Part shown: positions 3,822 through 22,779 of the stretch, one piece after another
Layout of the letters: every line of letters starts with the position of its first letter
Position numbering within the stretch: the first letter of the stretch is position 1
Source: Bdellovibrionales bacterium
GTDB lineage: Bacteria; Bdellovibrionota; Bdellovibrionia; Bdellovibrionales; UBA1609
Direction: 5' to 3'
Length of the DNA stretch: 32,396 nucleotides
Assembly (NCBI GenBank): GCA_022450595.1
Contig: JAKUPT010000032.1
Span: 1 to 32,396, forward strand
Made by a program: the position numbers and the translations under genes
The notes under the pieces: generated by a model
Seen by the model: the letters and a program-made list of their open reading frames with translations, nothing else
What the model was told of the DNA's origin: nothing
Database searches by the model: none

Positions 3822-3969
3822 GAATTTTATGCGAGGATTTGTGCCAAATTTCTCCCGGCATGGAACGGGTGCGCAGCGTCTTCGTATTGCGTTAACAAGT
3901 TAACGCAACACGGATACGCAGCGCTCGTACATGAGGTCGAAATTTGGCACAAATCCTCGCATAAAATTC
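3822..3969 (-). repeat. Hairpin element A1 (family A core, perfect 31-bp arms)
   Basis: The left arm 3822-3852 and right arm 3939-3969 are perfect reverse complements over 31 bases. The 86-base centre is GC-rich and itself an imperfect inverted repeat, with an inner stem GTTAAC-aa-GTTAAC. Read on the minus strand the centre starts GACCTCATGTACGAGCGCTG and ends GCGCACCCGTTCCATGCCGG. It is about 94 percent identical to the centre of A2 outside the inner loop, but the arms of A1 and A2 share no sequence. There is no T tract, so it is not a simple terminator. Confidence 0.9.
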
Positions 3970-4131: not shown

Positions 4132-4300
4132 GCACAGGTGGGTGAGATTCAGAAAATGGGGTGAAAATCGACCTCGTGTACGAGCGCTGCGTATCCGTGT
4201 TGCGTTAATCCCAACGGGATTAATGCAATACGAAGACTCTGCGCACCCGTTCCACTCCGGGAGATTTTCACCCCATTTTCTGAATCTCACCCACCTGTGC
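4132..4300 (+). repeat. Hairpin element A2 (family A core, perfect 38-bp arms)
   Basis: The left arm 4132-4169 and right arm 4263-4300 are perfect reverse complements over 38 bases. The 93-base centre starts GACCTCGTGTACGAGCGCTG and ends CCACTCCGGGA, matching the centre of A1 in opposite orientation. The inner loop differs from A1 but is again palindromic (TTAATCCC-aac-GGGATTAA). Apparent reading frames on both strands here are mirror translations of the palindrome and are not genes. Confidence 0.9.
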
Positions 4301-10862: not shown

Positions 10863-11399
10863 TTATTTATTGAGCTCAGGGCCTTTAGTGGGCTCTGAAG
10901 GCTTAATAGAGACTCCCAAGTCCTGATCAAGATGCTTGATTGGCGATTGAGGGTTTTGTACCACTCTTTGCTGTAACTGATTAAAAATTGGCTCACAGAT
11001 CGCCAGACCATTATCTTGAAGCACACACTGGCGCCCCATTCGTGTTTTCACATTAATAATGATCGGTGCCTTTAAGTTGGCTGTCATCTTAGTTGGGTCA
11101 TCTGGGATAGTGATTATACTAAATGCTCTTGATCCCTCTTTTGAGGATAAGCTCAGAGCTATCAAATCGCTCTTAGACATGTCGTATTTGTATTGATCGA
11201 CAAACAGTTCAGGTTCAAGCACTGGAAAGGCTATAGCCGGCTCCTCGCAGCTTTGAAGCCAAGCGAAGATGTCATCATTTGGATCATCTAAAAGAACAAA
11301 TTTACGTAAGCTATTAAAGCCTAGTAGGCCTTCATTAAAAGTAATTAAGTCTTCGGGTGTTATTTCAACAATTCCAAAGCGGGAAGTATGAATTTGCAT
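10863..11399 (-). CDS. fliW: Flagellar assembly factor FliW (CsrA antagonist)
   Basis: A 178-residue protein with the FliW features: MQIHTSRFGIVEI, ITFNEGLLGFNSLRKFVLLD, FAWLQSCEEPAIAFPV, SIITIPDDPTKMTANLKAPIIIN and GRQCVLQDNGLAICEPI. In characterised bacteria FliW binds CsrA and relieves repression of flagellin translation, and is itself titrated by unassembled flagellin. The protein is about 30 residues longer than typical FliW because of a polar C-terminal tail (VQNPQSPIKHLDQDLGV...). It lies directly downstream of csrA on the same strand, 269 bases away. A GAGGGGGC ribosome site precedes the ATG. Confidence 0.94.
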   Translation of the reverse strand: MQIHTSRFGIVEITPEDLITFNEGLLGFNSLRKFVLLDDPNDDIFAWLQSCEEPAIAFPVLEPELFVDQYKYDMSKSDLIALSLSSKEGSRAFSIITIPDDPTKMTANLKAPIIINVKTRMGRQCVLQDNGLAICEPIFNQLQQRVVQNPQSPIKHLDQDLGVSIKPSEPTKGPELNK

Positions 11400-11668: not shown

Positions 11669-11684
11669 TTAAGGCTTTAAGAGT
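11648..11684 (-). terminator. Probable csrA terminator
   Basis: On the minus strand CTTAAAG-ccttaatgt-CTTTAAG is followed by TTTTTATAT and overlaps the csrA stop. The stem is AT-rich, so termination may be incomplete and some transcripts could read into fliW. Confidence 0.45.
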
Positions 11685-11896
11685 TTTGAAACCGCTCTTG
11701 TGTTTTCCGGATTAGATTTTACTGACTCTTCATTCTGATTCTGAATGGCCATGTAAACTTCTTCTCTATGAATTTTTGTATCTTTTGGAGCTTCGATACC
11801 GATTCGTACCTGACGGCCTTTAATTTTAACCACTCTAATCTTTATGTGGTCATCAATGGCTATACTCTCTCCGATTTTTCTCGTTAAGATCAACAT
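11669..11896 (-). CDS. csrA: Carbon storage regulator CsrA
   Basis: A 75-residue RNA-binding dimer subunit. [20 protein letters not shown] and [19 protein letters not shown] contain the N-terminal strand and the VRIGIEAP segment (with its conserved Arg) that contact GGA loops. CsrA represses translation by covering ribosome sites. The C-terminus extends about 15 residues beyond the core, usual for FliW-associated CsrA. The ATG has an AAGGAG ribosome site within a small hairpin. Its position between flgL and fliW places it in the flagellar programme. Confidence 0.97.
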
Positions 11897-19989: not shown

Positions 19990-20802
19990 TTATCTGACTC
20001 GCCCAACTTCGTTGACAAGCTTATTATCCATTTCATCAAAAGCCCGTATGGCTTTTTGTGTGCTTTCAAAAGCACGTGTGGTTTTAATCATTTCAGTCAT
20101 TTCTTCCACAACATTCACATTACTGGTCTCCACATAACCTTGGTGAACACGAGCACTTGTTGCTAACTGTAGTTGTGGGTCTTGATTGTCTTTAAATCCA
20201 TATAAAAGTTGCCCTTGCTTTTGCAAAGCTTCTTGGTTTTGCGGGTCCACTATAGACATTTTTCCCACTAAACCACCATCTTGATAAATTTCACCATTAA
20301 ATGCCACAGTGACATTTCCACTGTTAGCCAACTGCATACGACGCTGTTCAGGGTCCACACCAATGCCTTCTGCCAACACCGGGTGTCCGTTATTAGTTAC
20401 AAGATAACCTTCTGGTGAAATTTTAAAATTGCCCGCTCGTTGAAGTTTGACGCCGTTAGGAGTTTGCACTTCAAAAAAGCCACGACCTTCTAAAGCAAAA
20501 TCAAAAGCATTGCCTGTTTGCTTAAGTCCACCTTGACTGAAGTCTGTGTAGGTTCCATTAGTATCTACAAAGGATTTGTCTCCACCTTGCATATCATAAA
20601 AGCTTTCGATAGAGGCTGTGACTCGGGGTACTTGTAGAGTGTCTGGGTACTTTTCATTGGCTGTGAGGTATTCATTAAAGGTTTGTTTGTCTTTTTTGAA
20701 TGCAGCGGTATCTACGTTTGCAAGGTTGTTTGCAATCGTATCCAGTTTGTGTGTTTGAGCCATGGCTCCACTTAACGCTGTGTAAATTCCTTTACTACTC
20801 AT
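19990..20802 (-). CDS. flgF: Flagellar proximal rod protein FlgF
   Basis: A 270-residue rod protein. SKGIYTALSGAMAQTHKLDT and IANNLANVDTAAFKKDKQTF start it. FDFALEGRGFFEVQTPNG, RAGNFKISPEGYLVTNNGHP and YVETSNVNVVEEMTEMIKTT follow, then ending RAFDEMDNKLVNEVGRVR. It is more divergent than the FlgG protein behind it and first in the operon, which is the usual place of FlgF. It sits 18 bases downstream of the expected sigma-54 start. Confidence 0.92.
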   Translation of the reverse strand: MSSKGIYTALSGAMAQTHKLDTIANNLANVDTAAFKKDKQTFNEYLTANEKYPDTLQVPRVTASIESFYDMQGGDKSFVDTNGTYTDFSQGGLKQTGNAFDFALEGRGFFEVQTPNGVKLQRAGNFKISPEGYLVTNNGHPVLAEGIGVDPEQRRMQLANSGNVTVAFNGEIYQDGGLVGKMSIVDPQNQEALQKQGQLLYGFKDNQDPQLQLATSARVHQGYVETSNVNVVEEMTEMIKTTRAFESTQKAIRAFDEMDNKLVNEVGRVR

Positions 20803-20829
20803 ATAAACTCTTTCCCCACCCTCTAAAGC

Positions 20830-20845
20830 AGCAACAGCTGTGCCA
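20830..20845 (-). promoter_or_regulatory. Sigma-54 promoter of the flgF operon
   Basis: The minus strand reads TGGCACAGCTGTTGCT, a near-perfect match to TGGCACG-N4-TTGCW with invariant GG and GC at the correct spacing. Transcription would start near 20819, just before flgF. It implies control by an NtrC/FlrC-type activator with binding sites further upstream. Confidence 0.8.
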
Positions 20846-21083
20846 TACAGACCTTCAAAGAGTTCTCTGGATCAAAGCCGTAAGTATTTCTAGACTCAAG
20901 ACCTCGGGTTTTAAAACCGATAAGCATATTTGGGCGTCAAGCCTTTGACTGCCTGATAAAATTTTGTCGTAAACAACAACTTACAATTCAGGACCTCTGT
21001 TGAGTGTGGGCACATTCAAGACAGAGGGGTTACAGTTTCTTTAAGACACATGGGTTGCATTTTTAGAATATGGAGGCTTCGAG

Positions 21084-21219
21084 TTCTTCATTTTACTTTT
21101 AAGGATTTGACTCTTAACCTCTCAGGATGCGGCCTCCATGCCTCGCTGCTCGCGGTCCGTCCTGGACCGCAGAGGTCCTTCGAGGCTAAGAGTCAAATCC
21201 TTAAAAGCAAAATGAAGAA
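21084..21219 (-). repeat. Hairpin element B1 (family B core)
   Basis: The arms 21084-21116 and 21187-21219 are reverse complements over 33 bases with one mismatch. The centre is strongly GC-rich. On the minus strand it contains CCTCTGCGGTCCAGGACGG and GAGCAGCGAGGCATGGAGG, shared with B2. Its apex is GGTCC-AGGAC-GGACC. The arms do not resemble those of B2 beyond the outermost TTCTTC. Confidence 0.9.
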
Positions 21220-21561
21220 GATCTTACTGGGTAATGAGCTTTAAAGTTTTTAAGTGGGAGTGAATAAAAATTCTGGGTGAAAAGTATGACTGTGTAAGAT
21301 GAGAATATTTATAAACAGGTTTAGTCATAAATGAATATACGATTACAACTCCAGTTTTAGTTAAGGATATTTTATAGATATAAATATAAGTAAATAAACG
21401 TGTATTAGCATTGGTAGAGTACTGTAGCTGTGGTCATGGAAATGAAAGCATTGGCTTTAATTTTATTCTTTTAAAAAATTTCTTTTATATCTCTGACACA
21501 AAACTCTATCTCATTTTTTTATTATTAATCGAAGCAGAAAAATATCAGTCTCAGTAAGATT

Positions 21562-21692
21562 TTCTTCGAAGTGTAGTTCAAAGTTTATACAAGTCTCGAT
21601 GGGCCTCTGCGGTCCAGGATGGACCGTGAGCAGCGAGGCATGGAGCCGTGCGCGGAGAGACTTGTATAAACTTTGAACTACAATTCGAAGAA
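21562..21692 (+). repeat. Hairpin element B2 (family B core)
   Basis: The arms 21562-21597 and 21657-21692 are reverse complements over 36 bases with one mismatch. The centre on the plus strand contains CCTCTGCGGTCCAGGATGG and GAGCAGCGAGGCATGGAG, nearly identical to B1 in the opposite orientation. Its apex is GGTCC-AGGAT-GGACC. It ends about 95 bases before the transglycosylase gene. Confidence 0.9.
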
Positions 21693-21786
21693 CTCGAAGC
21701 AAACAATTCTTCTATTTTTGCCAGATCCTTTGAGAATTATGAACTTCATTTGACAATTGTGAGCAAAATCGTGGTAAAGTTTTTTT

Positions 21787-22779
21787 ATGAACAAACTTCT
21801 TGGAATCCTCAGCCTATGTTTATTTGCAATTCCTAGTCACTCGGCTGTGGACCCTAACTCACATATTAATGCGGGCAAAAAACTCACTTTCACTCCAATA
21901 GATGAGAGTCCTTACTTTGACATTCCAGTGACTTATAATGCTGAAGTCAAAAAGTGGATTAAGCACTTCCAAGGTCCAGGTCGCAAGTGGTATTCGATTT
22001 GGCTTAAAAGATCCCATCGTTATCTACCATTGATGCAAAAGGCATTAGCCGACAAAGGGCTTCCACAAGATTTAGCCTATGTGGCTATGATTGAAAGCGG
22101 GTTCTCGGCAAAAGCGGTGAGCTCCGCCAATGCTGTTGGGTACTGGCAGTTTATCGCGGCCACGGGTAAGCGCTACGGTTTAAAAAAAGACTGGTGGATT
22201 GATGAAAGAAAAGATTTTTACAAAAGCACCATAGCGGCCAGTAATTATCTAGCCGATCTTTATAAGATGTTTAACTCTTGGTACTTGTCGGCCTCTGCCT
22301 ACAACATGGGTGAGAACCGAGTCAAAAGACTGATCAAAAAATATAAAACTAAAAACTTTTGGGTGCTGTCTCGTAAAAAAGACTTTCCCAATGAGACTAA
22401 AAACTACATTCCTAAACTGATTGCGGCTTTAATGATTGCGAAGATGCCAGACATTTATGGCTTTAAAGTTGATCAAAAGTTGAAGCCCTATGAGTACGAG
22501 CAGTTTTATGCTCCGGGCGGGACAGACCTTGTGAATTTAGCCAAACATTTAAAGATAAGTAAAAAAACACTTCTAAAAATTAACCCAGCCCTTCTAAATG
22601 GCTTTATTCCTAAGACTGAAAAAGGCTACTGGATTCGCATTCCAAAAGGAACGCTGGTTAAGGTGTCACAGTATATGGAAGGTCAGCTTAAAGTGGCTAA
22701 AGACGACTCCATCAAGAGGCCTCAGGCTCAATCCCCAGCTCTTCAGAAAGCTCCTGCTCAAGCTGTAAGTAATAATTAA
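21787..22779 (+). CDS. mltD: MltD-like membrane-bound lytic transglycosylase
   Basis: A 330-residue exported enzyme cleaving peptidoglycan glycan strands. Signal peptide MNKLLGILSLCLFAIPSHSA is followed by an SLT domain. YVAMIESGFSAKAVSSANAV carries catalytic Glu103; GYWQFIAATGKRYGL and LSASAYNMGENRVKRL complete it. Residues about 240-295 (TDLVNLAKHLKISKKTLLKI to YWIRIPKG) look like one degenerate LysM-type binding module. The N-terminus has no lipobox, unlike E. coli MltD. It lies beside the flagellar operon in divergent orientation. Its last 68 bases overlap the convergent lipoprotein gene. Confidence 0.88.
   Translation: MNKLLGILSLCLFAIPSHSAVDPNSHINAGKKLTFTPIDESPYFDIPVTYNAEVKKWIKHFQGPGRKWYSIWLKRSHRYLPLMQKALADKGLPQDLAYVAMIESGFSAKAVSSANAVGYWQFIAATGKRYGLKKDWWIDERKDFYKSTIAASNYLADLYKMFNSWYLSASAYNMGENRVKRLIKKYKTKNFWVLSRKKDFPNETKNYIPKLIAALMIAKMPDIYGFKVDQKLKPYEYEQFYAPGGTDLVNLAKHLKISKKTLLKINPALLNGFIPKTEKGYWIRIPKGTLVKVSQYMEGQLKVAKDDSIKRPQAQSPALQKAPAQAVSNN

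Follow-up and report, generated by a model that had tools for sequence, protein, structure and literature searches.

Dispersed hairpin repeats with conserved structured tips and copy-specific stems in a Bdellovibrionales genome, and a possible link of one family to CsrA

Introduction

B1 and B2, an inverted pair of long hairpins in a 32,396-nucleotide stretch of DNA from a Bdellovibrionales bacterium (hereafter, the window), belong to a family of sequences, B, which is almost certainly a structured repeat dispersed through the genome. As intergenic palindromic repeats, these hairpins are ordinary members of their class. They are unusual in the rule that they follow: a conserved, structured tip is carried by a stem whose sequence is free but whose two arms remain matched, with a length typical of the genome, and this holds for three families with unrelated cores. 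As the best explanation of the whole we tentatively favour a REP/BIME-like repeat that would encode a structured RNA, with a stem free in sequence but kept paired, and that would serve in the titration of CsrA.

The B1/B2 pair in the window

The two hairpins occupy the divergent region between flg and a transglycosylase gene (Table 1). Their cores match at 91% over 54 nt, and this match includes the 42-nt stretch with two mismatches which an earlier note, made from the letters of the window, had recognized within a shared centre of about 60 bases. The opposite orientations described there were confirmed as well, the GGA strand being the minus strand in B1 and the plus strand in B2. The arms of 33 and 36 bp with one mismatch each were likewise recovered, although the former represent only the outer part of the 38-bp arms of B1 and hold one of their two mismatches. 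Beyond their first bases, the arms of B1 and B2 bear no relation to each other. The motif just outside the left arm of B1, GGCTTCGAG, is common to the copies w1 and w2, the pair on contig C57 and the copy on C113, the arms of which are otherwise unrelated. No Rfam family reached its gathering score anywhere in the window.

Table 1. Features of the B hairpins and of related elements in the window
Feature	Position	Strand	Remarks
B1 outer motif GGCTTCGAG	21075..21083	+	left of B1 left arm; subgroup T2
B1 left arm, 38 bp	21084..21121	+	pairs with 21182-21219, 2 mismatches
B1 core, 60 nt	21122..21181	- (GGA strand)	three-way junction; alignment of 19 cores
B1 covariance model match	21108-21195	-	97.7 bits
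B1 terminal loop AUGGAG (ANGGAN)	21134..21139	-	ANGGA in 19/19 aligned copies
B1 terminal loop AGGAC	21159..21163	-	GGA in 18/19 aligned copies
B1 right arm, 38 bp	21182..21219	+	partner of 21084..21121
B1 outer motif GATCTTAC	21220..21227	+	right of right arm; common to B subgroup T2
B2 outer motif AGTAAGATT (reverse complement AATCTTACT)	21553..21561	-	
B2 left arm, 36 bp	21562..21597	+	pairs with 21657-21692, 1 mismatch
B2 core, 59 nt	21598..21656	+ (GGA strand)	orientation opposite to B1
B2 covariance model match	21584-21670	+	84.1 bits
B2 terminal loop AGGAU	21616..21620	+	
B2 terminal loop AUGGA	21640..21644	+	1 base shorter than B1 counterpart
B2 right arm, 36 bp	21657..21692	+	partner of 21562..21597
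B2 outer motif CTCGAAGC (reverse complement GCTTCGAG)	21693..21700	-	
Family A hairpin A1	3822..3969	+	B-like architecture, unrelated core
Family A hairpin A2	4132..4300	-	inverted partner of A1
csrA	11669..11896	-	Pfam CsrA, E 8e-25; proposed binder of B GGA loops
fliW	10863..11399	-	Pfam FliW, E 1.2e-36; CsrA antagonist

A different repeat, GTTACAG...AAGACACATGGGTTGC, adjoins B1 at 21028-21060. Sequence related to it is present at L018 and L022 (C113:4366 and 5688), where it flanks the two halves of the split B copy of that contig, and for this reason the repeat looks like the end of an insertion sequence.

Three families of hairpins in the genome

The genome (G000) is available as a fragmented assembly of 3.06 Mb in 156 contigs, 2.35 Mb of which were covered by our survey of long-arm hairpins. 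A genome-wide search with the B core, as proposed in the earlier note, found many further copies: the 60-nt query recurs in 22 places, with E values down to 2.8e-25, and the covariance model recovers 20 full-length copies at 83-107 bits, so this recurrence is not due to chance. Two other copies are damaged, one being degenerate (C91) and one split by an insertion (C113). Of the hairpins in the 2.35 Mb whose arms reach 26 bp or more and whose loops measure 40-130 nt, essentially all belong to A, B or C; small palindromes, mainly AAAAGGTACGGACTACCTTTT pairs, stand outside these families. Family A has 11 copies in the survey. Family C, absent from the window, has at least 12, with the core GAGTTCGGAGCGCA..GGGCGAAGCCCGAGCACCGCTTGTCTGAGC and the architecture of B; it is found on contigs C112, C146, C73, C24, C91, C87 and C77 (loci L236, L211, L216, L181, L154 and L246). 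The claim that B has a core unrelated to that of A in a design common to both is therefore supported, neither of the two outcomes named as refuting in the earlier note having occurred, and a third family is built likewise. That the arms differ between copies is borne out genome-wide. Inverted pairs, claimed for both A and B, are common (10 of the 20 full B copies, 6 of the 11 A copies) but not universal, and most copies lie in gene-free DNA as stated, except that a few arms overlap a predicted gene end by 4-19 bp. The association with flagellar loci, on the other hand, is a property of this window only, other copies lying beside many unrelated genes.

The copies of B can be divided into subgroups by the short motifs just outside their arms: GCTTCGAG...GATCTTAC, which includes B1 and B2; GTGCCNG...TTAAAC; and AACCC...TAGTT, a type common to B and A. 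Inverted neighbours carry one shared motif type. All seven occurrences of GTGCCNGGTTNA in the 2.35 Mb accompany a B core, which indicates that the outer motifs belong to the element; no solo target motifs of the GTGCC subgroup were found without a core.

Both A and C extend to other genera. Among related genomes, core A is present in G025, and core C in at least five, G025, G011, G038, G043 and G109. Wherever the surroundings of these copies could be examined, nearly all proved to be hairpins whose arms are peculiar to the copy, apart from fragments in G011 and copies cut by contig ends. Several contigs of G025 end inside an A hairpin (L262, L266, L268, L272); assemblies break at these hairpins, and copy numbers may consequently be underestimated. 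Sequence search did not find the B core in 97 relatives. The B covariance model, which comprises the core and 14 bp of arm, matches 33 of the 140 genomes of the order, G000 included; in the relatives these matches, known by position and score only, amount to 1-7 places each at 28-64 bits. The same model does not match the A or C hairpins even though they are equally long, which means that a long stem alone is not enough for a match. The B core was not found in plasmids. A single match in viral contigs, without a hairpin, and scattered matches of a 19-base core pattern in genome contigs, mostly of G+C-rich genomes, were both taken as chance.

Structure of the B core

The B core folds into a three-way junction, in which a short hairpin and a bulged one stand on a closing stem continuous with the arm. 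Across 15 copies of the stem, 99% of the alignment cells pair and 18 of the 32 pairs change on both sides (107 such cells), with a covariation score of 0.614 against 0.157 in shuffled and at most 0.11 in slid alignments. Inside the core itself, three copies have C-G in place of a U-A pair, and four copies, B1 and B2 among these, have U-A in place of an A-U pair.

On the GGA strand, the loop of the short hairpin reads ANGGA(N) in all 19 aligned copies, the N positions alone being variable, and that of the bulged hairpin reads AGGAN, with GGA in 18 of the 19; the two GGAs are about 22 nt apart. When the loops of the covariance model are randomised, the copies of G000 lose 8.9 bits (range 7.3-10.2), and the median loss in the relatives is 2.8 bits, with 27 of 31 values positive and the extremes at -0.4 and 7.4, in a comparison restricted to places matched by both models, G090 being an example of a match by one only. 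These losses suggest that the loop letters are in part kept in the relatives, which falls short of proof of a GGA in both loops.

Placement and comparison with known repeats

Bacterial MITEs such as NEMIS, ERIC and RUP are small, non-coding hairpin elements of 70-300 bp with conserved terminal inverted repeats. The hairpins described here are likewise small, non-coding and hairpin-forming, but their arms are copy-specific and conserved terminal inverted repeats are absent. With REP and BIME elements they share a broader set of features, being intergenic palindromes in many copies and inverted pairs, favoured behind genes and disfavoured in divergent regions (PMC3733652). According to a simple ORF caller, which filed the B pair of the window as tandem though its genes diverge, 13 of the 33 placed hairpins come within 40 bp of the 3' end of a gene, against 4.6 +/- 2.0 expected at random and no more than 11 in any of 300 draws, and only 2 of the 33 lie in divergent regions, where 10 +/- 2.7 would be expected; this placement is the distribution of REPs (cf. 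PMC3733652). Classical REPs, however, measure 20-40 bp, conserve their stem and bear a tag, GTAG or CGTC (PMC3733652), whereas the hairpins here measure 100-200 bp, conserve the core rather than the stem, and carry no such tag but the outer motifs GCTTCGAG/GATCTTAC, GTGCCNG/TTAAAC or AACCC/TAGTT. Contrary to a REP system, moreover, the RAYT of this genome is flanked by another repeat, of the AAAAGGTACGGACTACCTTTT type, and not by A, B or C. A further parallel is found in the LIMP and HyLIMP elements of an algal mitochondrion, with their invariant loop, complementary stem changes, both orientations and strictly intergenic position; LIMP stems consist of pentanucleotide repeats (PMC4524435), while those of B are unique sequence and its core is a structured junction.

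The RAYT-like Y1 transposase is encoded at L141:5469-5798 (C125), with the short palindromes AAAAGGTACGGACTACCTTTT / AAAAGGTAGTCCGTACCTTTT on its flanks. These palindromes occur at about ten further places, in inverted pairs across the genome, and together with the RAYT they form an ordinary REP system that is apparently undescribed for this genome. A second gene resembling a Y1 transposase (L142:15082-15270, C93) stands among sigma-factor-like and other genes, without flanking A, B or C. In view of the different repeat on its flanks, the RAYT was rejected as a partner enzyme of the three families. An autonomous partner between inverted pairs was discarded as well, the gene enclosed by the C77 pair looking tryptophanyl-tRNA synthetase-like, as we presume from reading the sequence by eye.

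The REP-like placement, the patchy distribution and the presence of the same outer motifs within inverted pairs are all in agreement with a purely selfish origin, in which A, B and C would be non-autonomous mobile hairpins comparable to REPs or MITEs, tolerated behind stop codons and devoid of a host role, and the core would be conserved as the recognition target of a mobilising enzyme. The use of one architecture for three unrelated cores fits as well. At a locus occupied by a 115-bp C hairpin in G038, the flanking genes are the same in G018 and the gap there, compared by length only, is shorter by about 108 bp, which an absence of the hairpin would explain. We nevertheless regard this explanation as possible but doubtful: no partner enzyme was found for it in this genome, where the RAYT is flanked by another repeat, the orientation of A and C is biased relative to genes, matches to the B model extend in low copy across 33 of the 140 genomes, and the GGA loops are conserved.

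The excess behind genes could otherwise reflect a function at mRNA 3' ends, where co-transcribed copies would stabilise the mRNA, block exonucleases or be cut by RNase III, in the manner of NEMIS or REP. Orientation relative to the upstream gene is constant in A (8 of 8, p 0.008) and nearly so in C (10 of 11, p 0.012), which is in favour of such a role; in B it is not constant (5 of 7). Against it, no terminator-like site, that is, a G+C-rich stem followed by a T-run, is present in 20700-22000, and B1 and B2 stand in a divergent region rather than behind a gene. Furthermore, when the arms of A and C are read on the sense strand of the upstream gene, 9 of 11 transition mismatches take the form A-C and not G-U, which is not the look of selection on RNA pairing, and the conservation of the core would be left unexplained. 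A role at mRNA 3' ends is for these reasons rather unlikely.

Arms paired without being conserved

In G000 the arms measure 26-51 bp, mostly 31-44 bp, with a median of 37. Their length goes with the genome and not with the family: both A and C have arms of about 60 bp in G025, as measured on copies uncut by contig ends (p 0.0002 against G000). Mismatches are scarce, amounting to 33 in 2107 pairs (1.6%) over 54 hairpins from this and related genomes. Between copies, in contrast to this internal agreement, the arms are mostly unrelated, few of 630 arm pairs exceeding dinucleotide shuffles, and copies with identical 47-nt cores carry unrelated arms. In the GTGCC subgroup of B, the interior arms are related beyond such shuffles (z 4.6). 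T is abundant in the 5' arms but not in the flanks. G-U pairs, where they occur in the arms of B, prefer the GGA strand by 7:1.

At L281:1467-1780 in G038, three C cores form a tandem array in which the first has perfect arms and the others have lost the left one, a natural experiment on how arms are homogenised. The right arms of copies 1 and 2 differ at 7 of 33 positions and the two arms within copy 1 at none of 33, a pattern to which our own calculation assigns a chance probability of about 4e-4 at equal rates. This array, the relatedness of arms in the GTGCC subgroup and the A-C mismatches of A and C together point to a process in the DNA itself by which one arm is copied from the other (cf. 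PMC8794818), and on balance we consider it somewhat more likely than not that the stem is kept matched at that level. Template switching is known to produce hairpins and to keep them perfect by copying one arm onto the other; it was described for RNA genes in general (PMC8794818), whereas here it would be the rule across families of dispersed bacterial repeats. In the explanation that we favour, only the core, with its three-way junction and two small hairpins, would be constrained in sequence, and the long stem would only have to pair. Template switching during replication would probably copy a change in one arm into the other, so that the stem could drift and still stay near-perfect. The unrelated arms around identical 47-nt cores speak against pure drift, and a renewal of the arms at or soon after insertion is possible.

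Carried further, this last point becomes a different explanation, by which the core alone inserts and snap-back DNA synthesis copies some 36 (or 60) bp of flank in reverse, the arms representing target sequence and its inverted copy. Such an event would suit the unrelated arms around identical cores, the dependence of arm length on the genome, the low number of mismatches and the lack of any other genomic source of arms. It would hardly produce conserved motifs outside the arms that are found only with the core, mutually related arms in one B subgroup, or T-rich 5' arms beside flanks that are not, and we consider it improbable. Arms copied from other loci of the genome were rejected, the best matches being no better than those of shuffled arms, as was a phage origin (best match E 0.8). 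Even though variable stems with kept pairing resemble attC sites and the arm lengths are spacer-like, the idea of a recombination site or of stored foreign sequence is largely refuted and very improbable, given that no integron integrase (TIGR02249) scores over the cut-off in the genome and that the arms match neither phages nor their own genome beyond shuffles.

As a separate observation, the A hairpin at L149:8811-8987 and the C hairpin at L154:1154-1285 have similar arms around unrelated cores (p 5e-5 when this pair is taken singly and about 0.02 when all cross-family pairs are corrected for), either by chance or by an exchange of cores between stems.

A candidate link of B to CsrA

Some B copies weakly match plant or animal miRNA models, as is the case with any long hairpin. 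The tip offers a more specific comparison. CsrA-type proteins recognise ANGGAN loops with variable N, and one dimer can span two sites separated by 10-63 nt, ideally by more than 18 nt (PMC7652899); a GGA in a 5-nt loop is still bound, about 2-fold more weakly (PMC3791407). By this rule (PMC7652899), B offers two loops at bridging distance, about 22 nt, of which one has ANGGA (19/19) and the other GGA (18/19); the latter has no A in the second position ahead of its GGA and hence is not ANGGA. Judged by its letters, the tip appears to resemble a CsrA docking site, and binding by CsrA, a reading formed after sight of the sequence, seems possible though doubtful.

Several B copies also match the full model of the TwoAYGGAY RNA (RF01731) on the GGA strand at 33-38.4 bits (B1, 33.0), all below the gathering score of 43 bits. 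No A or C hairpin matches it, and in G026, G090 and G112 the best TwoAYGGAY match coincides with a match of the B model on the same strand. The preference of the G-U pairs in B for the GGA strand and the presence of both csrA and fliW in the window also speak for a link to CsrA. TwoAYGGAY (clan CL00106) has been proposed to bind CsrA, and its external stem is poorly conserved (PMC4333381). B resembles it in its long, poorly conserved basal stem and its two terminal hairpins with GGA loops, but differs in scoring below the gathering threshold, in having about 20 dispersed copies, and in its loops, which are not AYGGAY twice: one reads AYGGA followed by G or U in nearly all copies and the other AGGAN (AUGGAG and AGGAC in B1). 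The ANGGA(N) hairpin loops and the pairing of sites at bridging distance are also features of CsrB/RsmY/RsmZ-type sRNAs. These sRNAs are single genes with many GGA sites each, while B offers two candidate sites in each of its many copies.

In 5 of the 7 unambiguous cases of a B copy close to a gene end, the GGA strand runs antisense, and a transcript of it would thus need a promoter of its own; none stands out. In our proposed explanation, the repeat to which B1 and B2 belong would be dispersed, non-coding and REP/BIME-like, and would specify a structured hairpin RNA. Its GGA strand, once transcribed, would hold one CsrA dimer across the two loops and so titrate it, and many copies together would act as a CsrA sink. 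The full form of this proposal, in which a CsrA-binding RNA has been multiplied as a REP-like repeat and its approximately 20 paired-GGA copies, each on a stem of free sequence, determine together with FliW how much CsrA is free, is one that we hold to be unlikely. Families A and C share the architecture of B without its GGA loops, and the common architecture therefore needs another explanation in their case.

Significance

The stems of dispersed palindromes are usually conserved. Here, three unrelated cores obey one rule, with a conserved tip and a copy-specific yet near-perfectly matched stem of genome-typical length, and the copies of A, B and C provide dozens of independent natural cases of the upkeep of pairing in long stems. 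As for CsrA, a review regards a joint action of FliW and sRNAs as a point not yet decided for any species (PMC7652899). The link between B and CsrA is testable and possibly important: if B does bind CsrA, it would represent a CsrA-binding RNA in a FliW-bearing bacterium, and the question of FliW and sRNAs acting together would become testable.
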